A stretch of DNA of 64,000 nt. It comes from Solibacillus sp. R5-41. GTDB taxonomy: Bacteria; Bacillota; Bacilli; Bacillales_A; Planococcaceae. The stretch spans positions 798,001 to 862,000 of the forward strand of contig NZ_CP024123.1 of the NCBI RefSeq assembly GCF_002736105.1, in the 5' to 3' direction. The notes under the pieces were generated by a model. That model did not search any database and had not been told where the DNA came from. It saw only the letters and a program-made list of their open reading frames with translations. Below are positions 18,688 to 56,784 of this stretch, piece by piece (position 1 is the first letter of the stretch; the number at the start of each line of letters is the position of its first letter). The position numbers and the translations under genes are program-made.

Positions 18688-18842
18688 TCAATTATGCCTT
18701 GGCATAGTTGCCTCCAGATTCGGCTTTGTGCTAGCACAAAGAACTCCATACCGAATCCGGGACATCCGCCAAATAGTAACTTAAAACCAACATCATCAGA
18801 CCACCTATTAAGGTGGGAGACTTTTGCTGAAAGAAGTTAAAG
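18688..18842 (-). repeat. Modular hairpin repeat, copy R1
   Basis: Minus-strand copy of the window-wide intergenic repeat. Read on the minus strand it begins with the stop codon of ylaF (TTTAACTT), then TTTCAGC (degenerate module A), GGCGGATGTCC and a C-type hairpin CGGATTCGG...CCGAATCTGG with an inner CTTTGTGCTAGCACAAAG palindrome. It ends in module D (AACTATGCC...GGCATAATTGA). Confidence 0.75.
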
Positions 18843-19052
18843 TAGGCCTTGTTCTCTAAATTTTCGTTTTGTTACAAATCCTAAACCGAAAATGGCGCAC
18901 ATGGCGATCAATCCTACAATAATCCCGATAATTCCAGTCGTTTCAAAATTTGTTCCAGTCATAAACACAAGTGCAACTGAGAAGCCGATACCAACCATTG
19001 AAAGAATCGCAGAGAGTGCATAGATGAACATGACTGCTTTTGCTTTATTCAT
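18837..19052 (-). CDS. ylaF: Small membrane protein YlaF (DUF5325-like)
   Basis: A 71-residue protein with two membrane helices (about 5-28 and 36-60) and a basic C-terminus TKRKFREQGLL, matching YlaF of Bacillales, which lies beside typA. The start ATG at 19052 has an excellent GGAGG site. The frame stays open another 49 codons upstream, but that extension lies in repeat R2 and is not protein-like. The gene is flanked by direct copies R2 (upstream) and R1 (its stop codon is inside R1). Function unknown. Confidence 0.8.
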   Translation of the reverse strand: MNKAKAVMFIYALSAILSMVGIGFSVALVFMTGTNFETTGIIGIIVGLIAMCAIFGLGFVTKRKFREQGLL

Positions 19053-19086
19053 ACGATAATAACCTCCATTCTTAACGATTATATGT

Positions 19087-19236
19087 GAATCAATTACGCC
19101 TCGGCGTAATTGTGTCCAGATTTTTTTCGAGTTTGCTTGAAAAAAATCTGTGACATCCCCCGGGGCTTTAACTTGATTCAGCCGGGGGTGATCCCCCACT
19201 AATAAAAGTGGAGGACTTCTGCTGAATCAAGTTAAA
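19087..19236 (-). repeat. Modular hairpin repeat, copy R2
   Basis: Minus-strand copy with all of A, C and D. Module A runs from TTAACTTGATTCAGC to GCTGAATCAAGTTAA, then GGGGGATGTCACAG. The C hairpin is GATTTTTTTC...GAAAAAAATC, then TGGACA, and D is CAATTACGCC...GGCGTAATTGA. D ends about 15 bp before the ylaF ribosome site. Confidence 0.85.
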
Positions 19237-19259
19237 AAATGATATTCATCTTTACAAAA

Positions 19260-19287
19260 AGACAATTAATCTTTCTTGTGCTATAAT
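19260..19287 (+). promoter_or_regulatory. Promoter of typA
   Basis: -10 TATAAT (19282-19287) with -35-like AGACAA (19260-19265) at 16 bp. The start of transcription near 19294 leaves a short leader with the site GGAGTGG before the ATG at 19329. Confidence 0.5.
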
Positions 19288-19328
19288 ATCACAGTTAAAC
19301 AATTGAAAAAAGAATATGGAGTGGAACA

Positions 19329-21176
19329 ATGACAAACTTACGTCAAGACATTCGCAATATCGCAATTATTGCACACGTTGACCATGGTAAAACAACTTTA
19401 GTAGACCAATTATTAAAACAATCGGGTACTTTCCGTTCAAATGAACGTGTTGAAGAACGTGCGATGGACTCAAATGATATTGAGCGCGAGCGCGGTATTA
19501 CGATTTTAGCAAAAAATACAGCAGTAAATTATAATGATACACGTATCAACATCCTTGATACGCCTGGACACGCCGACTTTGGTGGTGAGGTAGAACGTAT
19601 CCTGAAAATGGTAGATGGCGTTGTACTAGTTGTCGATGCGTATGAGGGTTGTATGCCTCAAACTCGTTTCGTACTAAAAAAAGCATTAGAACAAAAAATT
19701 ACACCAATCGTAGTTGTAAACAAAGTCGATAAAGATTCAGCTCGTCCTGCAGAAGTAGTAGACGAGGTATTAGAATTATTCATCGAGCTTGGCGCAGAAG
19801 ATGATCAATTAGACTTCCCTGTAGTTTATGCTTCAGGTGTAAATGGTACAGCTTCATTAAGCGATAATCCTGCTGATCAAGAAGAAGACATGAAGTGTTT
19901 ATTCGAAAAAATTATTGAAGCAATTCCAGCGCCAGTTGACAATTCTGACGAACCATTACAATTCCAAGTAGCACTACTTGACTATAATGATTTCGTTGGT
20001 CGTATTGGTATCGGTCGCGTATTCCGCGGTACGATTTCAGTAGGACAACAAGTTTCATTAATGAAGCTTGATGGTACAGTGAAAAACTTCCGTGTTACAA
20101 AAATCTTTGGTTTCTTCGGTCTTAAGCGTGAAGAAGTTCAAACAGCTAAAGCTGGTGACTTAATTGCCGTTTCTGGTATGGAAGACATCAACGTAGGTGA
20201 AACTGTTTGTCCAACTGAGCACCCAGAAGCGTTAACACCATTACGTATCGATGAGCCAACTTTACAAATGAGATTCTTAGTAAATAACTCACCATTCGCA
20301 GGTCGCGAAGGTAAATGGGTAACATCTCGTAAAATTGAAGATCGTTTACGTGCACAATTACAAACAGACGTATCTTTACGCGTTGAAGATACTAACTCTC
20401 CTGATGCTTGGACGGTTTCTGGTCGTGGTGAGCTTCACTTATCGATCTTAATCGAAAACATGCGTCGTGAAGGTTATGAATTACAAGTGTCTAAACCAGA
20501 AGTAATCATCCGCGTAGTTGATGGCGTTAGATGTGAGCCAATCGAGCGCGTTCAAATCGATGTTCCTGAAGATGCTGTTGGTTCTATTATTGAATCAATC
20601 GGTACGCGTAAAGGTGAAATGTTAGATATGGTTAACAACGGTTCTGGACAAGTTCGTTTAATCTTTAACGTACCAGCACGTGGTTTAATCGGTTACTCAA
20701 CTGAATTCATGTCAATCACAAAAGGTTTCGGTATTATTAACCACACATTCGATTCTTACCAACCAGTAGTTGCAGGTAAAGTTGGCGGACGTCACCAAGG
20801 TGTATTAGTATCTATGGAAAACGGTAAATCAACTACTTACGGTATGATGGGTATCGAGGACCGTGGTACATTATTCATCGAGCCAGGTACTGAAGTATAC
20901 GAAGGTATGGTTGTTGGTGAAAATAACCGTGACGGTGATATCACTGTAAACGTTGTTAAAATGAAACAAAAAACAAACATTCGTTCAGCTAACAAAGACG
21001 CGACGAATGTTATTAAAAAGCCTCGTATTTTAACGCTTGAAGAAGCTTTAGAATATTTAGGTGACGATGAGTACCTAGAAGTAACACCAGAATCTATCCG
21101 TTTACGTAAACAAATTTTAGATAAAAACGAACGTGAGCGTATGGCTAAAAAGAAAAAAACTGCTGAAAACGAATAA
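19329..21176 (+). CDS. typA: Translational GTPase TypA/BipA
   Basis: Ribosome-associated GTPase of the EF-G class, involved in ribosome assembly and stress growth; 615 residues, full length. G1 [10 protein letters not shown]2 [13 protein letters not shown]3 DTPGHADF and G4 NKVDK are all present. Domain II, III and V-like regions follow, then the BipA-specific C-terminal domain ([20 protein letters not shown] in part). The start is set by GGAGTGG. Confidence 0.97.
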
Positions 21177-21204
21177 TAATTCGGCATAAATAGGGAAAGG
21201 ATGA

Positions 21205-21624
21205 ATGATGTTGAATATGATGGCTGTAACAAGTAGCGCATTAAATTTAGTATTAGCATCTGCATCTACTGTAAGTTTAGATGAAAAGGATCGCGTTTTT
21301 GAACGTATGTCTGGAATCACAAGATTTTTATATGAAAATTTGCCAAGCTATGATATAGCCGGGTATGCAACGTTTATTATCGTGTTCCTTATGTCAGCAA
21401 TTGTCTACAAATTAGGTTTTGCCAAAAAGCTTTCATTCGGTAGAAATGTAATCATCTATACATTCTTGTTTTTTGGGTGTATCGTATTAACGTTCTTAGC
21501 GTTATTTTTACCAATGATTGAAGGTTTGATCGTAGCTGCCTTAATCTTAATCGTCTATAAATCACGTTTATGGCGTGAAAAGCGAGAAGAAGCTAAAGCA
21601 GTCAATGCGGCAAAAGAAATATAA
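21205..21624 (+). CDS. ylaH: YlaH-like membrane protein
   Basis: A 139-residue membrane protein with three hydrophobic segments (about 50-68, 80-98, 102-120) and a basic C-terminal tail. The core IVYKLGFAKKLSFGRNVIIY is typical of YlaH. B. subtilis YlaH is shorter, the extra part here being an N-terminal extension. Either of two consecutive ATGs (21205, 21208) could start translation behind AGGGAAAGG; spacing favours 21208. It lies 28 bp after typA and is probably co-transcribed. Function unknown. Confidence 0.85.
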   Translation: MMLNMMAVTSSALNLVLASASTVSLDEKDRVFERMSGITRFLYENLPSYDIAGYATFIIVFLMSAIVYKLGFAKKLSFGRNVIIYTFLFFGCIVLTFLALFLPMIEGLIVAALILIVYKSRLWREKREEAKAVNAAKEI

Positions 21625-21632
21625 ATTAATAG

Positions 21633-21672
21633 AGGTATAGAGAAACGATTTGTTTTTCTATACCTTTTTTTC
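21633..21672 (+). terminator. Terminator of typA-ylaH
   Basis: AGGTATAGAGAAA / TTTTTCTATACCT stem with one mismatch and a 7-nt loop, then seven T. Confidence 0.82.
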
Positions 21673-21730
21673 ATTGAAGTAATACATAATAATTGAGTAA
21701 AGTAGAATAAAAAAATGGGAGTAGATCGCA

Positions 21731-22363
21731 ATGACATTTACAAAGAAGCAAGTAGTCATTAGTACAAGTATAGTGTTAGCAATTATAGCGATAATCGTAT
21801 TTATACCAGCATTAATAACATCTTCTAAAGAAGATCAAGCGGCAGAGAAGTTAAGTAACATGTATCAAGAGAATTTTATTGTAGCAAAATCAACGGCGAG
21901 TATATTTAGCGATAATTTTGAATTGACTGTACAATCAAAGGACTCGAAAATTGTGTATGATTTCAATGTTCAAGATGATAAATTTATAGGAAACTATTAT
22001 GAAGAAAATATTAATGTGCAAATTAATGACTTATTGAAGCAACAAATGAATGGTCTTGTTATGACGAATGCACAGATCGAGCCTTTAACAAAACCAAGTA
22101 CATATAAAGACGTAACGATTGAAAGTTTAACGGTAAGAATGATTTTACCAGAGCCCCTTTCGGAGAAGGATGCGGCTACGATTGCACAAACTTTAAAAAC
22201 TGAGGTTGCGGATGTATCTGTTAAATTAGAAACATTTGTAGTAGAAGATGAACGAGATTATGAAGGAGTTTCATATGAAGTTATACAATTCTTCCAACTA
22301 AGCGCGATTACTGCAAAAAGTTTTGGGGATATAGCATTTGACACGCAACAATTTGAATTTTAA
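21731..22363 (+). CDS. Membrane-anchored hypothetical protein
   Basis: A 210-residue protein with one N-terminal membrane segment (VVISTSIVLAIIAIIVFIPA, about 8-28). The rest is an extracellular, acidic domain of about 180 residues rich in Asp, Glu, Lys and Thr, with no Cys. No motif is recognised. It has a GGGAG site before the ATG and its own spacing from ylaH (a terminator lies between). B. subtilis has other genes here (ylaJ-ylaM region), so this is a lineage-specific gene in a conserved location. Its stop codon is the first triplet of repeat R3. Confidence 0.75.
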   Translation: MTFTKKQVVISTSIVLAIIAIIVFIPALITSSKEDQAAEKLSNMYQENFIVAKSTASIFSDNFELTVQSKDSKIVYDFNVQDDKFIGNYYEENINVQINDLLKQQMNGLVMTNAQIEPLTKPSTYKDVTIESLTVRMILPEPLSEKDAATIAQTLKTEVADVSVKLETFVVEDERDYEGVSYEVIQFFQLSAITAKSFGDIAFDTQQFEF

Positions 22364-22611
22364 CTTGATTCAGCAGTGGTCCTTCGCTTCTAAAAGTGGG
22401 GGGTGAATGCCAAATATGCACTTAATTTAGTGGGGGTTTAAACCGCAGCTGAAGTAGGAGAACTTTGGCCAAGAACGCTGCGTCATGCGGTAACGCCTGA
22501 GTGCCCAACATTGTGTTGGCCTAATGCCCAGGCGGATGTCACAGATTTTTAAGTGGATTTTTTCGAGCCAGCTCGAAAAAATCTGGACGTAATTAGTCGA
22601 GACGTAATTGA
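22361..22611 (+). repeat. Modular hairpin repeat, copy R3 (long form A-B-C-D)
   Basis: Begins at the stop codon of the preceding gene (TAACTTGATTCAGC). Module B holds AAGAACGCTGCGTCATGCGG, TAACGCCTGAGTG and the hairpin CCAACATTGTGTTGG. Module C is GGCGGATGTCACAG then GATTTTTTCGAGC...GCTCGAAAAAATC. Module D is GTAATTAGTC...GACGTAATTGA. Confidence 0.85.
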
Positions 22612-22616
22612 GTTAA

Positions 22617-22652
22617 AAAAAGTGCCGATTTGACTGCAATCGGCACTTTTTT
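22617..22652. terminator. Bidirectional terminator between R3 and ylaI
   Basis: AAGTGCCGATT / AATCGGCACTT stem with a 7-nt loop, flanked by A and T runs, between convergent genes. Confidence 0.88.
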
Positions 22653-22677
22653 ATATAAGCATTTAGAAATTTCACAC

Positions 22678-22881
22678 TTAGAACTCTTCATCAAATTTTG
22701 ACGATGTTCGGAAAAATTTGAATTTCCCAGTGTCTAAACGCTTTCCTGTATTTTCTGCAATGCGCGCAGAACAAGTGCGGCACATAAACGTATGAATTGG
22801 GCGATTACGCAGTTTTTTAGCTAATGGTAAATCATCTTGTAAATCATGTATCGTATCGCAAATAACACATTTTACACGCAT
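22678..22881 (-). CDS. ylaI: Zinc-ribbon protein YlaI (DUF2197)
   Basis: A 67-residue protein with two CxxC knuckles, VKCVICD (Cys5, Cys8) and FMCRTCS (about Cys34, Cys37), forming a zinc ribbon. A basic C-terminus follows. It matches YlaI in length and motif. The ribosome site TAGGAGG is in the 11-bp gap after the upstream gene, so both form a two-gene operon. Function unknown. Confidence 0.88.
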   Translation of the reverse strand: MRVKCVICDTIHDLQDDLPLAKKLRNRPIHTFMCRTCSARIAENTGKRLDTGKFKFFRTSSKFDEEF

Positions 22882-22892
22882 GAATTTTCCTC

Positions 22893-23393
22893 CTATTGAA
22901 TACGAATCGCTATTACGTTTTTGATTGGATTGTCAATGTTTGAACCGTTAGCAAGTAGAATGTGAACAGGTCCATCTTCTACTAATGGTTTCCCATCTTG
23001 ACTGAATTTTAAAATGAGCGTGATAGCTTCTTCAATCGAGAAAGAATGTTCTTCATTTGTCGAGCATTCAAAAACGACCTCAGTAGCGCATTCATTCATT
23101 TCCGCATTTTTAAGGAATGGCTTTAATTCCATCCCAAATGTCCCTGTTAACATCCCTTTTCGGTCGAATTTACGCTCCGTTTTCAATGTCGGTGGGAATA
23201 CCGCACCTTCCATTATTTCGCGTGACCAGTGTGCGCCCATATCTCGTAAATATTTTTCATTATCTTCTTCTACTTTTTCCGTAATGAAATATGTAGTAAG
23301 ATCAAGTTTTCGATCATCAAAAATCCAGACGGTTGGATCCAATGTTAATTGGTATGTTACCTCACCTTTAATTGGAATAATTGTTTCACCCAT
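22893..23393 (-). CDS. Conserved hypothetical protein upstream of ylaI
   Basis: A 166-residue soluble protein, acidic, with the segment WIFDDRKLDLTTYF near residues 23-36 and a C-terminal GPVHILLANGSNIDNPIKNV. I do not recognise a catalytic motif. A Bacillales family in this position (possibly YlaL-like) is sometimes labelled peptidyl-prolyl isomerase, which I cannot support from the sequence. It is co-directional with ylaI, which follows by 11 bp. Confidence 0.75.
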   Translation of the reverse strand: MGETIIPIKGEVTYQLTLDPTVWIFDDRKLDLTTYFITEKVEEDNEKYLRDMGAHWSREIMEGAVFPPTLKTERKFDRKGMLTGTFGMELKPFLKNAEMNECATEVVFECSTNEEHSFSIEEAITLILKFSQDGKPLVEDGPVHILLANGSNIDNPIKNVIAIRIQ

Positions 23394-23562
23394 GGCTAAG
23401 TCCCCCTTACCTAATATCGTTTCTATTATAACGCTATTTAATCTAGAAAGAAATATAATTGAATTGCTCGTAAATCATACAAAGACACTTGCATTTTTGA
23501 ATGTAAAAAGATACACTTTACTAAGGTAGAATCGAAGAAATATCATAGATGGGGGCGTCCTC

Positions 23563-23844
23563 ATGGATACGAAAGCACAGATTTCATTTCAGGAAAAAGC
23601 ATTCGAGCTATTAACTGCGGATGCAGATAAAATTGCTCAATTAATTCGAGTACAAATGGATAATTTAACAATGCCATCTTGTCCATTATATGAAGAAGTT
23701 TTAGATACACAAATGTTTGGCTTATCACGTGAAATTGATTTTGCAGTAAAACTTGGGTTGATTGAACGTGAGCAAGGAAAGGGAATTTTAAGTTCACTTG
23801 AAAAAGAACTTTCTTTATTGCACGAAGCGTATACAGACAAATAA
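23563..23844 (+). CDS. ylaN: UPF0358 family protein YlaN
   Basis: A 93-residue all-helical protein. The family core [20 protein letters not shown] and [16 protein letters not shown] is well conserved. In B. subtilis and Staphylococcus YlaN binds ferrous iron and modulates Fur; this is family knowledge. The ribosome site is a G-rich GGGGGCG before the ATG. It is immediately upstream of ftsW, as in B. subtilis, with a terminator between them. Confidence 0.93.
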
Positions 23845-23846
23845 AA

Positions 23847-23885
23847 GAAAACTCAAACGCTCCAAGCGGTTTGGGTTTTTTTTTC
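23847..23885 (+). terminator. Terminator of ylaN
   Basis: AAACTCAAACGC / GCGGTTTGGGTTT stem with a 6-nt loop followed by a run of T, 20 bp before the ftsW start. Confidence 0.82.
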
Positions 23886-23904
23886 AAAAAAGAGGTTTTG
23901 ATGA

Positions 23905-25074
23905 ATGAAAAGTTATTTTAAACAGTATTTACGTAATTTTGATTATGGGTTATTTTTTGTCTATATCTTCCTAACTCTATTCGGGTTAGTGATGATTTAT
24001 AGTGCAAGTATTTGGGTGTCCATAGTCCTTTTTGATCAAGCTCCTGACCATTATTACAAACGCCAATTATTAAATATTTGTTTGGCGTTTATCTTGTTTT
24101 TAGTTGCGGTTATTTTTCCGTATAAAAAATTTGCAGATAAGAAGATATTGGGGCTATTATTTGGGATGATGTTTTTCCTTGAAGTGGCGCTAATGATTGC
24201 TGGTAAAAATGTAAATGGTGCGAGAAGTTGGATTGATATAGGAATCATGAACTTTCAACCGTCAGAATTTGCTAAGCTCTTTATTATTATCTACTTTGCG
24301 GGTACCTTTTACCGTAAAAGTATTCATAAAGGTTCCATGCAGCTCTTATCTTTTGACGATGTTATGCCTCCGTTAGGTATGTGGCTCTTTATCGTACTTA
24401 TGGTAGGTTTTGAAACCGATCTAGGGGCGCTTGGCATCATTGTTTGTATTGCGATGTCAGTCGTTATAGCAAGTGGTATGAAGGGGAAAACACTGCAAAA
24501 GATTTTCGGCTTATTAAGTGCACTTGGTGTTGTTGGTGCAATTGGAATTTTAATTTTCAAATGGGATACCGTATTTAACCCGAGTCGTCGAGGTCGAATT
24601 ACGTCTTATTTAGATCCATTTAGTGATCCACTCGACACAGGATATCATGTAATAAATGGCTATTATGCAATTGGGGCTGGTGGCTTAGAAGGACGTGGAC
24701 TTGGGCAATCCATCCAAAAGCTCGGCTATGTACCAGAGCCACAAACCGACTTTATTATGGCTATTATTGCAGAGGAACTTGGCATTGTTGGTGTTTCCAT
24801 TGTTATTTTTGGTTTAGGTTTTATTGTAATGCGCGGTCTGTACATTGCAATGACAACAAAAGACCCGCTTGCACGTATGCTCGCGGCGGGCATTTCGACT
24901 TGGATAGGGGTTCAAACTTTTATTAATTTAGGTGGTTTATCGGGCATCATCCCGTTAACTGGGGTAACGTTACCTTTTATTAGCTATGGCGGTACTTCTA
25001 TACTATTGCTATCAATCGCAATGGGGATATTAATCAATGTCTCCACGTATCACAAATTAGAGAAAAGAAAGTAA
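23905..25074 (+). CDS. ftsW: Peptidoglycan glycosyltransferase FtsW (SEDS)
   Basis: Polytopic SEDS-family glycosyltransferase of the divisome, 389 residues, about ten membrane helices. Family motifs include GARSWIDIG and FQPSEFAKL, with the catalytic-region Asp in TDLGALGI. DFIMAIIAEELG and the C-terminal GVTLPFISYGGTS follow. It cooperates with a class B PBP (PbpB is encoded in the dcw cluster downstream). It is followed 18 bp later by pyc, the B. subtilis order. Confidence 0.95.
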   Translation: MKSYFKQYLRNFDYGLFFVYIFLTLFGLVMIYSASIWVSIVLFDQAPDHYYKRQLLNICLAFILFLVAVIFPYKKFADKKILGLLFGMMFFLEVALMIAGKNVNGARSWIDIGIMNFQPSEFAKLFIIIYFAGTFYRKSIHKGSMQLLSFDDVMPPLGMWLFIVLMVGFETDLGALGIIVCIAMSVVIASGMKGKTLQKIFGLLSALGVVGAIGILIFKWDTVFNPSRRGRITSYLDPFSDPLDTGYHVINGYYAIGAGGLEGRGLGQSIQKLGYVPEPQTDFIMAIIAEELGIVGVSIVIFGLGFIVMRGLYIAMTTKDPLARMLAAGISTWIGVQTFINLGGLSGIIPLTGVTLPFISYGGTSILLLSIAMGILINVSTYHKLEKRK

Positions 25075-25092
25075 TTAGGGGGATGAGGAGAA

Positions 25093-28527: not shown

Positions 28528-28536
28528 GAATTCGAA

Positions 28537-40075: not shown

Positions 40076-40153
40076 ATCTATTTTGAAGAGATGTTTCGCT
40101 TTATTTCCTTATTTTTTCTGTTATGATTAAGTGATAGATTGGGGGAATATACA

Positions 40154-40603
40154 ATGCTCATGACTTCTGAATGGGTTTTCATTTTAGATGAGGTCGATGA
40201 ATTAAGTGCGATGATTCTTTCCTCTGAGCAGGCTCAAAAACTTCGCCAAGCGTATAAGGCTGTTTATGAGGATATCGAACTTTCAGAAAGAATTAAGGCT
40301 TTCCAACGTATAAAAGATCAATACGAGGATGTACAGCGTTTTGGTAAGTACCATCCAGATTACAATATAATTATGAAACAAATACGAACAGAAAAACGCC
40401 ATCTCGATTTAAACGAGCAAGTTGCGACATTAAAGCTAGCGGAAAATGATTATCAAGATTTACTCGATGAAATTAGTCTCATTATTGGGCATTCTGTTTC
40501 AGAAGCGGTAAAGGTACCTGTGAGTAATCCGTTTTTTGCAAGTTCGGGCTCTTCTTGTAGTACGGGCTGCGGAACGGGTGGCGGCTGTTCTTGTTCAGCA
40601 TAA
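40154..40603 (+). CDS. ylbF: YlbF (RicF) regulator, Y-complex subunit
   Basis: A 149-residue helical protein, a member of the YlbF/YmcA family and partner of RicA and RicT (YaaT) in the complex that promotes mRNA processing, competence, sporulation and biofilm development in B. subtilis. The C-terminal tail is cysteine rich (CSTGCGTGGGCSCSA), consistent with the iron-sulfur cluster reported for that complex. The start is ATG 40154 behind GGGGGAA; a TTG at 40139 is unlikely. Its stop codon is the first triplet of repeat R4. Confidence 0.88.
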   Translation: MLMTSEWVFILDEVDELSAMILSSEQAQKLRQAYKAVYEDIELSERIKAFQRIKDQYEDVQRFGKYHPDYNIIMKQIRTEKRHLDLNEQVATLKLAENDYQDLLDEISLIIGHSVSEAVKVPVSNPFFASSGSSCSTGCGTGGGCSCSA

Positions 40604-40734
40604 TTTGATTCAGCAGGGGTTTAAATCCTAGCTGAATCAAATTAATGCCCCCAGCGGATGTCACAGATTTTTAGAGGAGTTTTTCGAGCAAGCTCGAAAA
40701 AAATCTGGACGTAATTACGCCGAGGTGTAATTGA
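40601..40734 (+). repeat. Modular hairpin repeat, copy R4 (short form A-C-D)
   Basis: Starts at the ylbF stop codon (TAATTTGATTCAGC). Module A closes with GCTGAATCAAATTA, then AGCGGATGTCACAG. Module C is TTTTTCGAGC...GCTCGAAAAA, then TGGAC. Module D is GTAATTACGCC...GGTGTAATTGA. Module B is absent. The rest of the ylbF-gdpD gap holds only the terminator at 40871-40913. Confidence 0.85.
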
Positions 40735-40870
40735 TTTTAGGGAAACAAATACGTCATTTGCGCATATTGCAGATGGCGTTTTTTGTATAGAGGGTATTTC
40801 GTTCAGCAAAATGTTGGTCGCTCAACTCGCCCTTGCAAAAATTCAAACCTAAGTTACGGTGTGAAATCTA

Positions 40871-41827: not shown

Positions 41828-42098
41828 AATATCGTCCTCCTTTAACCGTAAATCATTCATTTTAATAATCTAAATTGGTGTAATAAAAATAGAGCGTACA
41901 TGGTTGATTTAGCGCATGAGGCGTATCGTCACTCTACTGATTTCCATTATAACGGAAAATATACTGAGATGTCTAAACTCTGTTGCTATCAAATTGTACA
42001 TTTGGTATTCTTTTATTGGATATGTAAGTAAAAAATTAGCGGAAATGCACATATGAAAAGACATCAACTTGCGTTATTTAGCGCAAGTTATGTTTTTC

Positions 42099-42246
42099 TA
42101 ACTTGCTTCAGCAAAAGTCCCTCACTTCCATAAGTGGCAGGATGAATGCCGAGTATGCATTCCATTCAGTTGGGATTCAAACCCTGGCTGAATCAAGTTA
42201 AAGCCTCCGGCCGATTCCGGACGCAATTATACCGAGGCATAATTGA
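42099..42246 (+). repeat. Modular hairpin repeat, copy R5
   Basis: Begins TAACTTGCTTCAGC. Module A is long, with CCCTCACTTCC...GTGGCAGG, ending GGCTGAATCAAGTTAA. Module C is reduced to CCGGCCGATTCCGGAC. Module D is GCAATTATACC...GGCATAATTGA. It ends about 10 bp before the ylbG ribosome site. The left part of the gap (41828-42098) contains an unassigned hairpin AACTTGCG...GCGCAAGTT with T5 at 42065-42097. Confidence 0.78.
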
Positions 42247-42268
42247 TATAAGAAAAGAGGGATTTTAC

Positions 42269-42541
42269 ATGAACGAAAGACAAGGGCTGATTGTGTATGT
42301 GCATCAAATGAAGCATGCCAAATCATTACGAAAATATGGTCACGTGAACTTTATTTCGAGAAAGTTGAAATATGTAGTTATTTATTGTAACCGTGATGAA
42401 ATCGAATCACTTAAAAATAAAATACAACGCCTTCCATTTGTGAAAGACGTTGTAGAATCGTATCGACCACTCCTAAAGACGGAATTTGAAAATTCAAAAC
42501 CAGATAAAGCAAAGGAATATGATTATAAAGTCGGCCTTTGA
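42269..42541 (+). CDS. ylbG: UPF0298 family protein YlbG
   Basis: A 90-residue basic cytoplasmic protein beginning [20 protein letters not shown], with [14 protein letters not shown] and [13 protein letters not shown], typical of YlbG. The function is unknown. The start ATG 42269 has AAGAGGGA. An upstream in-frame extension of 41 codons lies inside repeat R5 and is rejected. The gene sits between direct repeats R5 and R6; its TGA stop starts R6. Confidence 0.88.
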
Positions 42542-42790
42542 CTTGTTTGGGCAATAATCCACTTCTTCTTTCAGTGCGGATGGATGCCGACTATGAATTT
42601 AACTATCAGTGGGGTTCAGACCCCAGCTGAAATAGTAGAAATCAGGCTAAGAACGCCGCGTAGTGCGGCAACGCCTAAGTGACCAACGTCCTGTTGGCCC
42701 AAGCTTCCAGCGGATGTCACAGATTTTAAGTGGATTTTTTCGAGCAATCTCGAAAAAATATGGACGCAATTCCGCCAAGACAGAATTGAT
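42539..42790 (+). repeat. Modular hairpin repeat, copy R6 (long form A-B-C-D)
   Basis: Starts at the ylbG stop (TGACTTG), with a degenerate module A ending CAGCTGAAATAG. Module B is AAGAACGCCGCGTAGTGCGG, CAACGCCTAAGTG and the hairpin CCAACGTCCTGTTGG. Module C is AGCGGATGTCACAG then GATTTTTTCGAGC...CTCGAAAAAAT. Module D is GCAATTCCGCC...CAGAATTGAT. Its last base abuts the stop codon of the convergent gene. Confidence 0.85.
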
Positions 42791-43180
42791 TTAGTGCATT
42801 GGTGGCAAATAGTGATTTAGCCGTAAAATTCCAATTAGGTATTGATAAAACTGATTTGTTTCCGAAAAAATAGATGAATGCTTTATTTCGAAAGTATTTT
42901 CTTGCTTGTTTGCGGTATGCACAACTTGCTGGAATATTTCGATCCGCTTCGAAGGTTTTTCTTCATTGAATGGAATCCCTTCGCGGCAAATATAAATCGG
43001 CATGAATTTGCTTTCACCAGATGGCTTAAACGCTACTGCAAGTGAAGCAACCATGCTACCATTATGATTAGCAGTGAAGATGAACGCGTTATGGATACGG
43101 TGCTCATTCGTTTGGATTAATTCGCAAAGCTCGAAAACATCGCCATAGCCTTGACCTAGTTCAATAAATTGTTGAATCAT
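42791..43180 (-). CDS. Conserved hypothetical protein (DUF7147-like)
   Basis: A 129-residue soluble protein beginning MIQQFIELGQGYGDVFELCEL, with FMPIYICREGIPFNEEKPSKR in the middle. I recall a Bacillales family with this core that is sometimes mislabelled methylthioribose kinase. It is too short for a kinase and has no nucleotide motif. Ribosome site AAAGGATG. It has no B. subtilis counterpart between ylbG and rsmD. Function unknown. Confidence 0.72.
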   Translation of the reverse strand: MIQQFIELGQGYGDVFELCELIQTNEHRIHNAFIFTANHNGSMVASLAVAFKPSGESKFMPIYICREGIPFNEEKPSKRIEIFQQVVHTANKQENTFEIKHSSIFSETNQFYQYLIGILRLNHYLPPMH

Positions 43181-50196: not shown

Positions 50197-50961
50197 ATGG
50201 ATTATTTAATTGAAAATAAAGATGGAATTTTAACATTTACAATAAATCGTGAAGAAAAGCGTAACGCAATTAATTATGCCGTTATGGATGGGTTAAAGGA
50301 AGTCATTACATACATTAAAGAACACCAAAATGTTCGTTTTTTAGTTATAACAGGGGCTGGTGAGAAGTCGTTTTGCTCGGGGGGCGATTTATCAGAGTTC
50401 CACTCGCTTGAAACGGAAGAGCAAGCTTTTGGTATGTTGAGTAAAATGGGGAATATTTTATATGATCTAGCCACATTACCAGTACCGACAATCGCGCTTA
50501 TTAATGGTACTGCGGTTGGCGGTGGCTGTGAGATTGCAACGGCATGTGATTTCCGAATTATGGCGTCACATGCAAAGGCTGGATTTATTCAAGGGTCGTT
50601 AGCGATTACTTCTGGATGGGGTGGGGGAACTTATTTATTTGAACGCGGGCTAAGGCATGACCGTGCGCTAAAAATGCTCGTGGATGCTAAAGCATATGAT
50701 GCCCAAACGTTATATGAAATTGGTTGGGCAATGCGCGTCTATATTGAAGGGACAAAGGAACAAGCGCTTGCTGATTTTATTGAACATATGGCAAAAATTC
50801 ACCCTTCAGTACACCAAGCGTATAAAGAAATTGAACTTCGAAAATGGCGTGAACGTAATATGTATGAACGCGTTATGGAAGAGATTCATTTGTGCGCGAA
50901 ATTATGGGAATCCGAAGCGCATCATGAAGCGGTAAATAACTTCTTAAATAAATCCAAATAA
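50197..50961 (+). CDS. Enoyl-CoA hydratase/isomerase family protein
   Basis: Crotonase-fold protein of 254 residues. Oxyanion-hole motifs SFCSGGDLSEF and GTAVGGGCEIATACDFR are clear. The catalytic-loop region reads ITSGWGGGTYL, without the double Glu pattern of classical enoyl-CoA hydratase. That makes a decarboxylase or isomerase role possible. The start ATG 50197 has a G-rich site; TTG 50164 and ATG 50167 lie ahead of it. Co-oriented acyl-CoA carboxylase genes follow 700 bp later, suggesting a shared acyl-CoA or branched-chain degradation pathway (compare the yng cluster of B. subtilis). Confidence 0.85.
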   Translation: MDYLIENKDGILTFTINREEKRNAINYAVMDGLKEVITYIKEHQNVRFLVITGAGEKSFCSGGDLSEFHSLETEEQAFGMLSKMGNILYDLATLPVPTIALINGTAVGGGCEIATACDFRIMASHAKAGFIQGSLAITSGWGGGTYLFERGLRHDRALKMLVDAKAYDAQTLYEIGWAMRVYIEGTKEQALADFIEHMAKIHPSVHQAYKEIELRKWRERNMYERVMEEIHLCAKLWESEAHHEAVNNFLNKSK

Positions 50962-50970
50962 AAATGATGG

Positions 50971-51009
50971 AACGTCTCTTAATTTATAACCAAATTAAGA
51001 GGCGTTTTT
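50971..51009 (+). terminator. Terminator of the crotonase-family gene
   Basis: AACGTCTCTTAATTT / AAATTAAGAGGCGTT stem with one mismatch, a 6-nt loop and T5. Confidence 0.85.
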
Positions 51010-51022
51010 CTCTCGCTTTTTA

Positions 51023-51050
51023 TTCTATTTCAACCATCCTCGCATATAGT
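51023..51050 (+). promoter_or_regulatory. Possible sigma-E promoter of the gerR-like gene
   Basis: -10 CATATAGT (51043-51050) fits the sporulation sigma-E pattern CATAnnnT. A -35-like TTCTATT (51023-51029) lies 13 bp upstream (5 of 7 positions of the consensus). B. subtilis ylbO/gerR is a sigma-E gene. Confidence 0.4.
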
Positions 51051-51075
51051 AGTAAAAAATGTGAGGTGGTTTAAC

Positions 51076-51459
51076 ATGGAACAAAAGAGAAGAAAAGATC
51101 AATGGACAGCTATGGATGACGAAAAATTAGCGGAAATTGTCATTCAGGCGGTGCAAAATGGCCGAACGCAGCTAGAAGCATTTGAGCAAGCGGCGCGTGA
51201 ATTAAATCGAACGAAGCAAGCTTGTGGGTTTCGATGGAATAAAACTTTAAGATTACAGTACGGGCAAGTATTAAATAGTGTTCGTAAGCGCCCGAAACAA
51301 TTGATGCGCAGTCATTTAAAACTAGCGTTATCCAGTTTTGAGGAATTAACGGAAGCTTATAATGAGCTGGAAATTAAACATACCGAGTTACAATCTGAAT
51401 ATGAAAAAGTATTAAAGTGGGTACAGCAAGGTGTTAATTTAGTTGGAGATAAGAAATGA
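51076..51459 (+). CDS. gerR: RsfA-family sporulation regulator, GerR/YlbO-like
   Basis: A 127-residue putative transcription factor. The N-terminal Myb/SANT-like domain (1-65) has QWTAMDDEKLAEIVIQAVQNG and the Trp pattern CGFRWNK. A basic stretch KRPKQLMR and a C-terminal coiled coil (85-120) follow. In B. subtilis GerR adjusts the sigma-E regulon in the mother cell. This version is shorter than GerR (about 190), lacking a C-terminal part. Synteny (rpmF then panE) supports the call. Start ATG 51076 with GAGGTGG. Confidence 0.78.
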   Translation: MEQKRRKDQWTAMDDEKLAEIVIQAVQNGRTQLEAFEQAARELNRTKQACGFRWNKTLRLQYGQVLNSVRKRPKQLMRSHLKLALSSFEELTEAYNELEIKHTELQSEYEKVLKWVQQGVNLVGDKK

Positions 51460-51691
51460 AAATTACGTGAATGCTGATTTTAGTAGAAAATAACTTATTT
51501 TTCGAGAAAATAGACGAAATTATTTGAATTTAAATTTAATGGTAGCTTACAATAGAAGTAGAAGCATAGTGTTTTCTTTGTAAATAACAAAGTATCACTT
51601 GCTTATCTACATAAGTAGGGGCATCATCTTGTGTTATTCAAAGAGAGAGATGTCATTCTAAGGAAAATATCTACTAAGGGGGCATTTTAAA

Positions 51692-51904
51692 ATGGCAGAA
51701 GTTAAAGCACAAATGGCGGGAACAGTTTTTGAGGTAAGTGTTAAAGAAGGGGACGGCGTAACGAAGGGGCAAACATTAATTATTTTGGAATCAATGAAAA
51801 TGGAAATTCCGCATGATGCTGAAGGGGACGGAACAGTAACGAAAATTCGCGTCGTTGAAGGCGATTTTGTTGAAGAAAATGATGTACTTGTGGAACTAGC
51901 ATAA
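51692..51904 (+). CDS. Biotin/lipoyl-carrier protein (YngHB-like)
   Basis: A 70-residue single-domain carrier. The modification motif ESMKMEIP places the biotinyl (or lipoyl) Lys near residue 35, and the beginning VKAQMAGTVFEVSVKEGD is typical. It is the same size as BLAP/YngHB. The carboxyltransferase follows 19 bp later, so it should carry the carboxyl group for that enzyme. Ribosome site AAGGGGGC. Confidence 0.9.
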   Translation: MAEVKAQMAGTVFEVSVKEGDGVTKGQTLIILESMKMEIPHDAEGDGTVTKIRVVEGDFVEENDVLVELA

Positions 51905-51923
51905 ATGCAAAGGGGAGAAATAC

Positions 51924-53462
51924 GTGACGCAGCAAACGTACAATACACATTTACAGCAGAAAATTGATTCAATCTATGCGGGTGGACATTCGAAATATCA
52001 TGACAAATTGAAAGAAACAAATAAATTATTTGTTCGTGATCGATTAAAGCTTTTATTTGACGATGGTAAATATGAAGAAGATGGTAGATTTGCAAACTGT
52101 GAGGCAGGCGATTTACCAGCGGATGGTGTTGTGACGGCTATTGGACAAATTGATGGTCAAACGGTTTGTGTAATGGCGAATGATTCGACGATAAAAGCTG
52201 GTTCATGGGGTTCTAGAACTGTTGAGAAAATTATCCGTATTCAAGAAAAGGCTGAAAAACTTCAAGTACCGATTCTTTATTTAGTCGATTCGGCGGGGGC
52301 ACGTATTACAGATCAACTCGAAATGTTTCCGGGAAGGCGAGGGGCGGGGCGGATTTTCCATAATCAAGTTCGCATGAGTGGCGTAGTCCCGCAAATTTGT
52401 ATTTTATTTGGCCCTTCAGCAGCCGGTGGCGCTTATATTCCAGCATTTTGCGATATTGTTATTATGGTAGAAGGCAATGCATCGATGTACTTAGGTTCCC
52501 CTCGAATGGCGGAGAAAGTGATTGGTGAAAAGGTAACGCTAGAAGAAATGGGTGGCGCGCGTATGCACTGCACAGTAAGCGGCTGTGGAGATGTTCTTGC
52601 TGATAATGAAGAACAAGCGATTGAAGAGGCACGCCGGTACATTGGGTACTTTCCAGCGAACTTTTCAGAATATCCGCCACTTGTTGAAATGAAGCCGCCA
52701 AAAAGTGGGGAAGCATTGGAAGAAATCATTCCTGAAAATCAAAATGCACCGTTTGATATGTATGATTGCATCGATCGATTAATTGATGAAAATAGTTTTT
52801 TTGAAATAAAGAAGCTATTCGCACCGGAGTTAATTACAGGGCTTGCGCGCATAGATGGTCAAGTAGTTGGTATTATTGCGAATCAACCGAAAATAAAAGG
52901 TGGCGTGTTGTTTATTGATTCTGCTGATAAGGCAGCGAAGTTTATTACATTATGTGATGCATTTTCAATCCCGCTATTATTTTTAGCGGATGTCCCTGGT
53001 TTTATGATTGGGACGAAGGTTGAGCGCGGAGGTATTATCCGTCATGGTGCAAAATTTATTTCCGCTATGAGTTCGGCTACTGTACCAAAAATTTCTGTCA
53101 TTGTCCGTAAAGCATACGGAGCGGGCTTATATGCGATGTGTGGTCCGGCATTTGAACCGGATGTGGTCATAGCTCTTCCTACAGCGCAAATTGCTGTCAT
53201 GGGACCTGAGGCGGCTGTAAATGCTGTTTACTCAAATAAAATTGAAGCGATTGAAGATCCGAAAGAACGCATGCAATTTGTGAAGCAAAAAATAGCAGAA
53301 TATAAAGAAGAAATTGATTTGTATAAGCTGGCATCAGAAATGGTTATTGATGAAATTATTGCACCAAATCAACTTCGAGAAACATTGATTCAACGTTTTA
53401 ATTACTATAATTCAAAGCAAATGACTCTTCCATATCGAAAACATCCAGTCTATCCAGTATAA
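51924..53462 (+). CDS. Acyl-CoA carboxylase carboxyltransferase subunit (YngE/PccB-like)
   Basis: Biotin-dependent carboxyltransferase beta subunit, 512 residues, with two crotonase-like halves. The motifs RITDQLEMFPGRRGAGRIF, FGPSAAGGAYIPAF and the C-terminal RKAYGAGLYAMCG mark the acyl-CoA/propionyl-CoA/methylcrotonyl-CoA class. It starts with GTG 51924 after GGGGAGA. No biotin carboxylase subunit is encoded nearby, so it must borrow one from elsewhere. Substrate uncertain (propionyl-, methylcrotonyl- or glutaconyl-CoA). Confidence 0.9.
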   Translation: MTQQTYNTHLQQKIDSIYAGGHSKYHDKLKETNKLFVRDRLKLLFDDGKYEEDGRFANCEAGDLPADGVVTAIGQIDGQTVCVMANDSTIKAGSWGSRTVEKIIRIQEKAEKLQVPILYLVDSAGARITDQLEMFPGRRGAGRIFHNQVRMSGVVPQICILFGPSAAGGAYIPAFCDIVIMVEGNASMYLGSPRMAEKVIGEKVTLEEMGGARMHCTVSGCGDVLADNEEQAIEEARRYIGYFPANFSEYPPLVEMKPPKSGEALEEIIPENQNAPFDMYDCIDRLIDENSFFEIKKLFAPELITGLARIDGQVVGIIANQPKIKGGVLFIDSADKAAKFITLCDAFSIPLLFLADVPGFMIGTKVERGGIIRHGAKFISAMSSATVPKISVIVRKAYGAGLYAMCGPAFEPDVVIALPTAQIAVMGPEAAVNAVYSNKIEAIEDPKERMQFVKQKIAEYKEEIDLYKLASEMVIDEIIAPNQLRETLIQRFNYYNSKQMTLPYRKHPVYPV

Positions 53463-53530
53463 TATTGTTAGCTGAAGGTCTGTCTTGGAGGCAGACCTTT
53501 TTAATTCGAGCGAATATGGGGGGATCCTGT

Positions 53531-54427
53531 ATGAAAATTGAAATTATTGGTGCTGGTGCAGTAGGTTTGTTAGTGGCGAGCTTTTTGGCGGAAAAGCAGG
53601 CGAGTGTCAAATTGATTACACGAACAGAGCAACAAGCCGTGCAACTAAAAGTAAATAACTTAATGCGAACAAATTGTGATGGGACGACATCTGTTTTCCC
53701 GATTGATGCAGCAGCTAGTTTAAGTGGTGATGCCGATATAATAGTCATTGCGGTAAAATACGGTCAATTACAGGATGTTTTTAAACAGTTGCAAACAGTG
53801 AAGCCGACCACACCTATTTTATTTTTGCAAAATGGCTTAGCGCATTATGACGAAGCTCTTCGGTTGCCGTTTCATCAAATTGCTTTTTGCTCGGTTCAAT
53901 TTGGTGCGCAAAAAATAAATGAATATCATGTTGCGCATAAAGGGATTGGTCCGATGAAAATAGCTGTTGCTAAGGGAGAAAAAATTTTCTTTTCCCACTT
54001 GGGAGCCTATTCATCCGAGCGTTTTCTAATCGTGTTTGAAGGAGATGCGGAAGCGATGTTGCTAGAAAAAGCGTGGTTAAATTGTTTTATAAATCCTTTA
54101 ACAGCTATTTTACAAGTTCCAAATGGGCAACTGATTCAACGAATAGATGCTTTTCAACTGTTAAAAAAATTATATAATGAAATGATAATGGCTTTTCCGC
54201 AATTTGCAGAAAACTTCCATTTTGAACAAGTGGTCGCGCTTTGCGAACGAACGGCCGAAAATACATCTTCTATGCTGGCGGATGTATTAGCAGGTAGGGA
54301 AACGGAAATTGAAACGATTGTCGGAGCAATTATTAAAAAGGCGCATATTGATAATAAGCAATTACCGATTTTGCAAACGCTTTATTTGCTTGTAAAAGCG
54401 TTAGAGGAGAGTGGTGAAAGAATGTGA
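53531..54427 (+). CDS. panE: 2-Dehydropantoate 2-reductase
   Basis: NADPH-dependent ketopantoate reductase of pantothenate synthesis, 298 residues. NADP-binding GAGAVG (7-12), FLQNG, and the catalytic Lys region WLNCFINPLTAIL. Start ATG 53531 with GGGGGGAT; the open frame upstream has no ribosome site. B. subtilis YlbQ (PanE) lies at the same position. It shares 4 bp with the following gene (ATGTGA). With coaD, this makes two CoA-pathway genes in the window. Confidence 0.88.
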   Translation: MKIEIIGAGAVGLLVASFLAEKQASVKLITRTEQQAVQLKVNNLMRTNCDGTTSVFPIDAAASLSGDADIIVIAVKYGQLQDVFKQLQTVKPTTPILFLQNGLAHYDEALRLPFHQIAFCSVQFGAQKINEYHVAHKGIGPMKIAVAKGEKIFFSHLGAYSSERFLIVFEGDAEAMLLEKAWLNCFINPLTAILQVPNGQLIQRIDAFQLLKKLYNEMIMAFPQFAENFHFEQVVALCERTAENTSSMLADVLAGRETEIETIVGAIIKKAHIDNKQLPILQTLYLLVKALEESGERM

Positions 54428-54819
54428 TACATTTTTTGCAATACATAATAGCAACAATCATTTTATGTCCACTTCTTGCATTTCTTATCGTATTTGTAAG
54501 TTGTCGAAAAATGAGAATGGAACAACATAAGGTGATTGGTTTAGCGGCGGATGTCACGACAATTATATTGTTTTTTTCTGTCCCAGTTGCCATTCAAGCG
54601 CTATGGGAGTTATCGTTATTTATCCCGATATACTTACTGGCGCTATCGATTGCCGTTATTTTTACATATATTGATTGGAAAAAGAAAAAAGAAATACAAG
54701 TGATGCTATTGTTAAAGAAAATTTGGCGTGCCTATTTTTTATTATTAGGAACGAGTTATTTCTTTGTCTGGGTCATTGGTTTAGTGCACTCAGTTACGAT
54801 ATACATGGTAGTTATATAA
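54424..54819 (+). CDS. DUF3397 family membrane protein
   Basis: A 131-residue protein with four predicted helices (about 6-26, 40-60, 65-82, 100-125), likely DUF3397. The GTG start overlaps the panE stop (ATGTGA), so translation is coupled. The function is unknown; its location between panE and bshC is common in Bacillales. Confidence 0.72.
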   Translation: MIHFLQYIIATIILCPLLAFLIVFVSCRKMRMEQHKVIGLAADVTTIILFFSVPVAIQALWELSLFIPIYLLALSIAVIFTYIDWKKKKEIQVMLLLKKIWRAYFLLLGTSYFFVWVIGLVHSVTIYMVVI

Positions 54820-54960
54820 ACATTGAAGTTTGAATAAGCATTTTCTTTCCACTACACGGGTAGAACGTATAGAATAAAGATGGCAGCATAAAATGAAAAA
54901 ACGAAATTGAAATTATATAATAATATGCAATCGAGTAGAGGGAAGTAGAGGAGATTTACA

Positions 54961-56577
54961 ATGAAGCTGGAACAAATACAATCCCCAGTGAATACGAAAT
55001 TAGTAACGGATTATTGGTCTGAAAATGCGGATATCCATTCGTTTTTTGAATACAAATACAACGAACAATCTTTTATTGATCGGGCAAATTATTTGCAAAA
55101 TAATATATATCGTTCAAAAGAGCTCACGGAAATTATTCGTAGCTTTATGGAAAAGTACGGAGTTCATGAAAAAACAAACAAACATCTTCTAGAGCTTGAA
55201 CACGGTGCAATGGTAATCGTAGGAGGGCAACAGTCAGGGCTTTTAACGGGTCCGCTTTATTCGATTCATAAAGCGATTTCTGTTATTTTATTGGCACAAG
55301 AGCAACGTGAAAAGCTAAACGAACCAGTCGTTCCAATGTTTTGGATTGCTGGTGAGGATCATGACATTGAAGAAATTAATCATACGTATACAATTTTGGA
55401 TGCGGAAGTTAAAAAGCGTGGGTATAGCGAACGCTCGAAGCTTAAAACGATGGCATCAACGACAAAATTAAATCCAGAAGCAATCGAACAATTTGTTAAA
55501 ACTGTGTTTCAAGATTTTGGTGAAACGGAATACACGGAGCAATTAATGGCAGTTGTTTTAGCTCATGCAAAAAGTAGTGATACGTTTACAGATTTCTTTA
55601 CTGTATTAATGAATGATTTATTTAAAAATCACGGGTTACTATTATTAGATGCTACTTATGCGCCTTTCCGAAAATACGAGCAACGCTATTTTAAAGAGCT
55701 CATTGAAAACAATGAAAAAATTGCAGCGCAAGTAGTCGAGCAAGAAAAGAAATTAGCGCAAGCAGGTTATTCAATGCCGATAGGTGCAACTGAAAATAAT
55801 GCGAACCTCTTTTTCGTAAAAGAGGGGGAACGTTTTTTACTAGAACGAAAAAATGGGCATTTTAGTAATGCACTTGCACAGGTGAAGCTGACTGAAGTGC
55901 AGCTACTGCATCTGGCGGAGGATTGTCCTGAAGTGTTAAGTAATAATGTTGTCACGCGTCCATTAATGCAGGAAATGGCGATTCCGGTATTAGCATTTGT
56001 TGGTGGACCGGGTGAATTGGCGTATTGGGCAACATTAAAGCCTGCGTTCACAACATTACAATTACAAATGCCTATTTTTGCGCCTCGTTTGAATTTGACA
56101 ATCGTGACGAGACAAGTGCAACAAATTCTTGAACAGCAACAATTGACTGTGGCACAGGTCTTCGCTGGGCAAGCAGAAGAGAAGTTGTTGCAATTTATTG
56201 CTGAAATACAAGATCAAGAAGCACAGCAGCTGATTGGGCGAATGAATGAACAGTTAATGGGGCAATATGAAGCGTTGTCTGAGTACTTACAAGATAAAAA
56301 TTATCATGTTGAAAAGTTGCTTGAAAAAAATAAGGCGTATCATGATCGACAATTCCGCTATTTGCAAGCGAAAATTTCGGAGCAAGTATTGCAAAAGCAT
56401 GACGCAGTAATTCGCCAATATAAAACGTTGCTATTGGAACTTTTTCCTAATGGTAGTTATCAAGAGCGTATTTATAATCCGTATCAATATATCAATGCAT
56501 ATGGTTTATCGTTTGTTGATGATTTACTTCAGTTGCCGATGAATCTGTCAGAACAACATCAAATCATATCAATTTAA
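54961..56577 (+). CDS. bshC: Putative cysteine ligase BshC (bacillithiol synthesis)
   Basis: Last enzyme of bacillithiol synthesis, 538 residues, the usual length. VGGQQSGLLTGPLYSIHKAIS, FWIAGEDHDIEEINH and IPVLAFVGGPGELAYWA are clear family motifs. A coiled-coil region is inserted near 430-480. Ribosome site GAGGAGA. B. subtilis yllA at the same place upstream of mraZ. Its stop codon is the first triplet of repeat R7. Confidence 0.95.
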   Translation: MKLEQIQSPVNTKLVTDYWSENADIHSFFEYKYNEQSFIDRANYLQNNIYRSKELTEIIRSFMEKYGVHEKTNKHLLELEHGAMVIVGGQQSGLLTGPLYSIHKAISVILLAQEQREKLNEPVVPMFWIAGEDHDIEEINHTYTILDAEVKKRGYSERSKLKTMASTTKLNPEAIEQFVKTVFQDFGETEYTEQLMAVVLAHAKSSDTFTDFFTVLMNDLFKNHGLLLLDATYAPFRKYEQRYFKELIENNEKIAAQVVEQEKKLAQAGYSMPIGATENNANLFFVKEGERFLLERKNGHFSNALAQVKLTEVQLLHLAEDCPEVLSNNVVTRPLMQEMAIPVLAFVGGPGELAYWATLKPAFTTLQLQMPIFAPRLNLTIVTRQVQQILEQQQLTVAQVFAGQAEEKLLQFIAEIQDQEAQQLIGRMNEQLMGQYEALSEYLQDKNYHVEKLLEKNKAYHDRQFRYLQAKISEQVLQKHDAVIRQYKTLLLELFPNGSYQERIYNPYQYINAYGLSFVDDLLQLPMNLSEQHQIISI

Positions 56578-56784
56578 CTTTTTCAGTGGAAGTTTCTAAA
56601 CTCTACTAGACGATGAATTGAATGTGGTTTTTAAGTTACTATTTAGCGAGTTTTAAAAAAATGCTGAAATAGTGAAAAGCAAACTAAGAACGCTATATCC
56701 TGTGGCAACGCCTGAATTGACCAACATCGTGTTGGTCCAAATCCCCGGCCGATTCTGGACGTAATTATGCCTAGGTATAATTGA
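56575..56784 (+). repeat. Modular hairpin repeat, copy R7
   Basis: Starts at the bshC stop (TAACTTTTTCAGTGG), with a diverged module A. Module B has AAGAACGC, GCAACGCCTGAATTG and the hairpin CCAACATCGTGTTGG. Module C is reduced to CCGGCCGATTCTGGAC (as in R5). Module D is GTAATTATGCC...GGTATAATTGAT. TTTTAAGTTACTATTT at 56632 is also shared with R1. Confidence 0.72.

Follow-up and report, generated by a model that had tools for sequence, protein, structure and literature searches.

What are the seven hairpin-rich repeats scattered along a 64,000-nucleotide stretch of the Solibacillus sp. R5-41 chromosome (positions 798,001-862,000 of contig NZ_CP024123.1, hereafter the window), and how did they come to be there? 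The repeats, R1 to R7, had been picked out in an earlier note made from the sequence alone. When each was read on its proper strand, all seven were found at the positions and on the strands given there, with a fixed order of hairpin modules, A-(B)-C-D, and with the long and short alternatives described. R1 to R7 all belong to a single dispersed element that is non-coding, palindromic, and mosaic in build. Its unit is wider than first drawn, beginning at TTTAA/C (here and below the slash marks the border) and ending in ..TTGAT, and, as the note had also held, it codes for nothing, being too short for a transposase gene. With a probability of roughly two in three, we consider R1 to R7 to represent a mobile element of the IS200/IS605 kind, non-coding and non-autonomous and similar to palindrome-associated transposable elements (PATEs) and mini-IS605, that has proliferated in chromosomes of the Caryophanaceae (Planococcaceae). 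No description of the element was found in the literature searched, in which subscription journals were thinly covered, and modules A, C, and D had no Rfam match at the gathering threshold (those of R4-R5 gave sub-threshold matches only).

The ends of the element and its target carry much of this reading. Across 127 distinct 5′ ends, the border reads TT/TAACTTG, the information in the flank stops at position -2, and the sequence logo is TTTAAC. At the other end, 142 of 240 3′ ends hold TAATTGA exactly, and 92% of those 142 continue with T. Three young copies in a second genome of the genus, the close relative G003, show the same limits: copies L251 and L357 are 99.5% and 98.5% identical, respectively, to copy L344 over 195 nt, their flanks are unrelated, and the only common part is TTTAAC...TTGAT. 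Filled and empty sites were then compared between the host and G003 in 23 cases in total (17 + 5 + 1), of which five had both flanks aligned across the site. These were R2, L162, and three G003 insertions in L238, L239, and L240 that are missing from the window. In the others, at least one flank was diverged, degraded, replaced, or rearranged (R1, R3, R5, R7, L126, L130, L131, L137, L142, L152, L158, L165, L166, L202 twice, L240:3911, L255, and L357); among the three young copies only L357 could be compared, the flanks of L344 and L251 being rearranged or missing in the host. The empty site of R2 reads TTTTTTGA/TCACATAT and that of L162 reads GATTAA/TCCATG, with three mismatches near the border. 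Those of the three G003 insertions are TTTTTAA/AAAATAC, CTTTAAA/CATCAG, and, in L240, GATTAA/ATCGCAATT; in this last site the four bases next to the junction on its right do not match, so that the border is set by equal spacing. All five aligned sites agree on a unit (C/T)...TTGAT with TTAA or TTGA to its left in the empty site and no target duplication, the target pentamers being TTTAA twice, ATTAA twice, and TTTGA once. Published IS605 elements insert 3′ of TTTAA (PMC2993954; PMC11043419), and for one such element TTTGA is reported as a weak motif of its TnpB (PMC11043419). A classical miniature inverted-repeat transposable element does not describe the repeats, which have neither terminal inverted repeats nor a target duplication. 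Group II intron and IS91-like readings were dropped because the ends and the target do not fit.

A second line of evidence comes from module A, which occurs in two forms, short (R4) and long with an extra hairpin (R3, R5, and R6), with R2 intermediate. The long form shares homology with the left ends of transposons of the IS605 type (tnpA+tnpB) in the same family; the short form has no such likeness. A profile of the element searched against 30 TnpA loci gave four matches at E ≤ 0.01, namely three IS605-type left ends and one incidental B. The three left ends lie upstream of tnpA in the right orientation (L263, E of 1e-5; L279, 5e-5; L260, 1e-3), and all ten IS605-type left ends that were read start with TTTAAC. 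In the reverse search, the L263 left end matched 16 of 121 genomes of the family, including the host (best E there 6.8e-10, 86% over 56 nt). It recovered near-identical or related left ends in G076, G029, G061, and G044 (tnpA not shown, mostly short loci), as well as long A modules of the element in the host and others, and 18 of 30 loci fetched in this reverse search, from nine genomes, also show C/D. The earlier guess at an HUH-type source thus stands as far as the homology of long A to the left end of Y1-bearing IS605-type elements and the IS200/IS605-type insertion pattern are concerned; the REP-associated tyrosine transposase (RAYT) that it had offered as an example is unsupported. As a separate observation, locus L282 of G003 (G003:C1:623265-623624) is one IS605-type element with tnpA and tnpB and an in-frame stop in the tnpA frame.

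Several results weigh against an IS200/IS605 origin. The host has no match to Y1_Tnp (PF01797) and, despite at least 148 copies of the element, none to PF07282 (TnpB zinc ribbon), and control genomes were positive in these searches. Y1_Tnp occurs in 74 of the 121 family genomes and does not track the element, with 35 of 56 element-bearing genomes positive versus 39 of 65 element-free ones (Fisher p 0.85; tallied by hand from match lists, with unlisted genomes counted as negative). The three IS605 right ends read (L279, L260, and L282) have the form GAAG-hairpin..TTCAC, unlike D (..TTGAT), so that one IS605 TnpA would not obviously recognize both ends. An autonomous copy, with a transposase open reading frame (ORF) of its own, was not found in a scan that covered the C-D interval only. 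For 218 of the 279 C starts in that scan, the stretch also contained a D-like site farther downstream; the other 61 lacked one (variant D or end of the stretch). Ten C-D pairs were more than 150 nt apart, five of them by 164-315 nt and five by 3.4-8.7 kb; the latter are probably chance pairs. Some element-free sites (those of R1, R3, and R2) differ from the filled site in showing TAG or TGA instead of TAA, and one G003 copy, L251:2576-2768 (G003:C1:987575), is flanked by 16-bp direct repeats, AAAGTGTTGGATAGAA; the region is locally repetitive, and there is no empty site to tell whether these repeats arose by duplication or were there before. In the absence of an outgroup, precise excision could also account for an “empty” site. 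Finally, an IS608-like enzyme is expected to give a lagging-strand bias, and no clear replication-orientation bias remains after allowing for gene direction. The apparent bias (59 of 88 copies co-oriented with replication, the terminus being assumed opposite the origin) is explained by gene direction and was set aside; with convergent or divergent neighbors only, 15 of 21 copies are co-oriented, in a small sample.

The lack of both protein matches in the host, the lack of a Y1 association across the 121 genomes, and the unlikeness of D to the three IS605 right ends read would also be expected if the same ends and target were served by an unrelated, unrecognized enzyme and the IS605-like hairpin of long A were a captured module. 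The short form of A, which lacks that hairpin, is common in other genera among matches to a short-A query, and modules are visibly swapped, both of which suit this alternative. On the other side, the lack of duplication on insertion 3′ of TTTAA and the presence of a hairpin at each end fit IS200/IS605 enzymes, the enzyme candidates searched were PF01797 and PF07282 only, and the long form shares its whole left end, TTTAAC included, with IS605-type elements. An unrelated enzyme is, in our view, doubtful. We regard as highly improbable the further alternative that the repeats are REP/BIME-type repeats of a RAYT. Such repeats would likewise be palindromic, intergenic, and mosaic, and Y1 proteins of RAYT size (about 200 amino acids) exist in other genera of the family; yet the host has no PF01797 match, the Y1 matches within the genus all fall in the IS200/IS605 score range, the element profile matches a single RAYT locus out of 20, and other repeats are seen by eye in the eight loci whose flanks were inspected. 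This candidate was rejected. RAYT-like genes of other genera (L288, L289, L291, and others) were seen by eye to lie beside repeats of the AATTGTGT..GCACAGGG and GTGCCAGGCACC types.

The simplest account remains a PATE or mini-IS605-like element, for which we infer a step in trans. A Y1 (HUH) single-strand transposase supplied in trans would recognize the hairpins at the ends, cleave on the 3′ side of TTTAA (left end) and of TTGAT (right end), and paste the single-stranded unit 3′ of a new TTTAA. The left end would be IS605 derived, the right end is unlike the three IS605 right ends read, and the passengers would be exchangeable. The PATEs of Haloquadratum walsbyi (PMC3119063) are described as similarly short and non-coding, with near-terminal palindromes related to IS605-type ends, without terminal inverted repeats or target duplication, and with many diverged copies in which other small elements are nested. 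Strain-specific IS605-type insertions are reported in Haloquadratum even though all or almost all tnpA genes of one strain are broken (PMC3119063), a parallel for a host without a Y1 match. The present element differs from PATEs in being bacterial (Caryophanaceae), in that only its left end is IS605-like, and in having four module types that are exchanged as well as a preference for exact stop codons. The mini-IS605 and mini-IS606 of Helicobacter pylori (PMC2993954) are end-only derivatives with 100-150 bp of each end, and the IS605 left end adjoins TTTAA. They keep both ends of the parent insertion sequence, whereas the right end is unmatched here, and they number six and eight copies compared to at least 148, an order of magnitude more. 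By description, the element can also be likened to BOX elements of Streptococcus pneumoniae (PMC3049150), which are intergenic and modular, A-(B)n-C, with an optional central module that varies between strains. The bcr1 repeats of the Bacillus cereus group (PMC6542083) are comparable on the same footing, being dispersed, about as large, and marked by a TTTAT motif that is considered to be linked to mobility.

The element is numerous and widespread. Further copies, genome-wide and in relatives, and covariation in the arms, whose joint absence the earlier note had taken to count against the family, were both found. In the host genome (4,283,411 bases, one contig), blastn with R3 gave at least 45 matches, itself included (40 of 212 candidates scored), of which four, 25-29 nt long, are reverse matches due to the palindrome in the C hairpin. 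A search with a covariance model of C-D found at least 148 copies at E ≤ 0.001 in the host, at least 148 in G003, 96 in G002, and 3-22 in 12 further genus members, so that this part is present in all 15 genus genomes searched, host included; since 150 candidates were scored per genome, the host and G003 counts are floors. The short form (R4 query) was matched in 56 of the 121 family genomes and in 12 of 19 genera, and it was not matched in 72,556 plasmid or 50,697 phage records. An exact 19-mer of C was found in at least 119 stretches of named genomes, nearly all from Solibacillus, Lysinibacillus, Sporosarcina, Psychrobacillus, and relatives; the nearest named relative of the host found was Solibacillus palustris. 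One viral contig holds an 18-mer of C. The 19-mer also appeared in records labeled as unrelated phyla, namely L050, L088, L099 (Arthrobacter beigongshangensis REN13), and L074 (a Zixiibacteriota metagenome-assembled genome); L050, L088, and L099 carry full-length short elements. These contigs are likely foreign or mislabeled.

The hairpins themselves are under constraint. Covariation was evaluated on 40 copies hand-picked from 62 non-redundant short copies (80 full-length copies among 315 matches) and drawn from many genera, with the structure taken from one alignment row. Standard pairs made up 93.8% of 1669 cells, and 32 of 44 pairs change on both sides, with strong compensatory change in hairpins A, C, and D. 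Double-changed cells numbered 133; shuffles gave 31.5 ± 4.6, and slid controls no more than 26. In place of terminal inverted repeats, the element thus has near-terminal palindromes, with 94.3% of cells paired in helix D and 92.0% in helix A (helix 1), a figure raised by the favoring of copies with a complete 5′ arm. The A stem takes in the flank-side TTAAC: copies with arm GATAA lie at TTTATC and copies with arm GTTAA at TTTAAC. The match between arm and flank can reflect a guide-like pairing with the target or merely a carried end; the 3′ arm of short A (..GTTAA), which pairs with the flanking TTAAC, could be such a target guide. None of the 21 full-length host copies with B retains the 3′ arm of A, yet 18 of the 21 still start with TAAC, which argues that TAAC is retained as target or end and not for pairing.

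As to their position relative to genes, the repeats had been described as always intergenic, and indeed none of 88 host copies lies inside an ORF of at least 90 amino acids, but five of the seven in the window (R1, R3, R4, R6, and R7) start exactly at the stop codon of the upstream gene, i.e., of a DUF5325 gene, an ORF without a Pfam match, a YlbF/YmcA-family gene, a DUF2129 gene, and BshC, respectively. Where, as is often the case, the stop TAA is itself the target, the upstream gene is not shortened, and its 3′ untranslated region (3′ UTR) then begins with the element. In all five genes the protein end in G003 gives an equal length, with or without the element; only the R1 and R3 sites are element-free there, R4, R6, and R7 keeping the element or a remnant. 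Six further gene ends (L137, L158, L162, L142, L131, and L240) are likewise unchanged, the host ends having partly been read by eye. The 5′ ends of two of the young G003 copies, L357 and L344, likewise fall on a stop TAA, preceded by 158 and 300 open codons; at L357 the host site is element-free with the same protein end, the frame being open for only 35 codons in the host fragment.

Across genomes, 46 of 188 distinct 5′ ends coincide with an exact stop codon (21 of 58 in the host, 5 of 19 in G003, and 20 of 111 in others). Considering ends with at least 300 nt upstream, 45 of 180 lie at an exact stop, compared to 115 of 2159 (5.3%) non-coding TTTAA controls (Fisher p 4e-16), with no excess in the 1-30 nt past the stop (15 of 180 compared to 150 of 2159). 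Among the remaining ends, 19 of 135 follow directly after a terminator-like hairpin with a T-tract, compared to 60 of 2044 controls; 5′ ends not fitting a short anchor pattern had been dropped before these counts. Damage avoidance by selection explains absence from genes, not the preference for the exact stop over the next 30 nt. These figures bring in a reading in which insertion itself is tied to gene ends. Exact stops and terminator T-tracts would be chosen well more often than the available TTTAA sites predict, through an enzyme other than a resident Y1 (or one acting on single strands exposed at the ends of transcription or translation units), with the A arm as a base-pairing guide and with module B as a second-order mobile module entering the hairpins of other repeats. 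This combination is, in our estimation, rather unlikely.

The excess at exact stops and after terminator-like hairpins, together with the compensatory constraint on structure, would also be expected of functional cis-acting RNA structures of the 3′ UTR, acting in mRNA stability or termination and maintained and spread by selection, with mobility secondary. The R6 site, occupied in the host, in G003, and, in degenerate form, in G002, points the same way. Against such a role, the copies lie in either orientation to the flanking genes (33 same/same and 24 opposite/opposite among 78 with both neighbors), copy number ranges from 3 to at least 148 within one genus, and presence or absence at orthologous genes is common. 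Single-stranded DNA hairpins recognized by a transposase explain the covariation too. We judge selected 3′-UTR structures improbable as the origin of the family.

The comparison to a mosaic of exchangeable hairpins, made in the earlier note, is borne out by module B and by the strong covariation. B is a full-length match, above the curated cut-off, to Rfam RF01690, Bacillaceae-1 (PMC2864571), in three window copies, and RF01690 has 103 matches in the host genome, 99 of them over the cut-off. Rfam lists Bacillaceae-1 as a small RNA gene, whereas B is an optional part of larger repeats, which shows that this “small RNA” occurs in the host genome largely as a module of dispersed repeats. Host copy L121 contains B, but the orthologous copy of S. 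palustris, nearly identical elsewhere, does not, and B is likewise missing at the R6 site in G003. It is nested inside another B in L149, L152, L156, and L173, and a variant of it occurs inside the C loop in either orientation. Modules, B above all, are acquired or lost at a set position in the element, and B is probably a passenger that travels or is swapped between several repeat families. By eye, B was also seen inside two further dispersed repeat families, a GGCGACTCCTGCGGGAACAGC...GCCGTGCCCGCGG type and a CCGCCGCCTCCC...GGTCTTGCACAAAGC type (L180, L201, L207, L213, and others of the host genome; L160, L163, L175, and L194). A recurrent D variant has a GACAARAGTTAGCC-type 5′ arm before GAGGCGTAATTGA (L142, L149, L152, L153, L162, and L195); this arm pairs poorly with the 3′ arm and resembles an exchanged half-module.

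The seven window copies are built as follows. R1 (18686-18842, minus strand) has a degenerate A of the long type, a variant C, CGGATTCGG..CCGAATC (hairpin GGATTCGG..CCGAATC), and D. With its 5′ TAA it supplies the stop codon for the DUF5325 gene (18837-19052, minus strand), whose protein end is the same at the element-free G003 site. R2 (19087-19238, minus strand) consists of A with an IS605-like inner hairpin, C, and D, and both of its junctions are readable against the empty site in G003. R3 (22359-22612, plus strand) carries long A, B, C, and D, with B at 22453-22519 (plus strand, 48.3 bits against a cut-off of 35). Its 5′ TAA is the stop of ORF 21731-22363, which has the same protein end in G003, there with TGA. 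R4 (40599-40736, plus strand) has short A, C, and D without B; its 5′ TAA is the stop of the YlbF/YmcA-family ORF (40139-40603), and G003 holds a degraded remnant at the same place. R5 (42097-42247, plus strand) has long A, a short C (CCGGCCGATTCCGG), and D without B and lies immediately upstream of the DUF2129 (YlbG-like) gene; it has no counterpart in G003, whose gap at this place exceeds the element in size. It ends about 20 nt before the start codon of this gene and so falls within its 5′ region (window 42097-42269), and G003 lacks both R5 and the terminator-like hairpin that precedes it. R6 (42537-42791, plus strand) has long A, B (42631-42697, plus strand, 61.9 bits), C, and D; its 5′ TGA is the stop of the DUF2129 ORF, which runs to 42541, and the same site in G003 holds an element without B. 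R7 (56573-56785, plus strand) has a degenerate A, B (56668-56735, plus strand, 39.8 bits), a short C (CCGGCCGATTCTGG), and D. The BshC gene (ORF 54961-56577) has its stop in the 5′ TAA of R7, and a degenerate element is found at the same place in G003.

These results account for a class of intergenic sequence in the Caryophanaceae. They also provide hundreds of natural insertions, closely related element-free sites, and near-identical young copies, a system in which the way that single-strand transposition chooses its targets can be tested. How an element that targets TTTAA can fill a compact genome without breaking its genes is shown by the excess of copies at exact stop codons.

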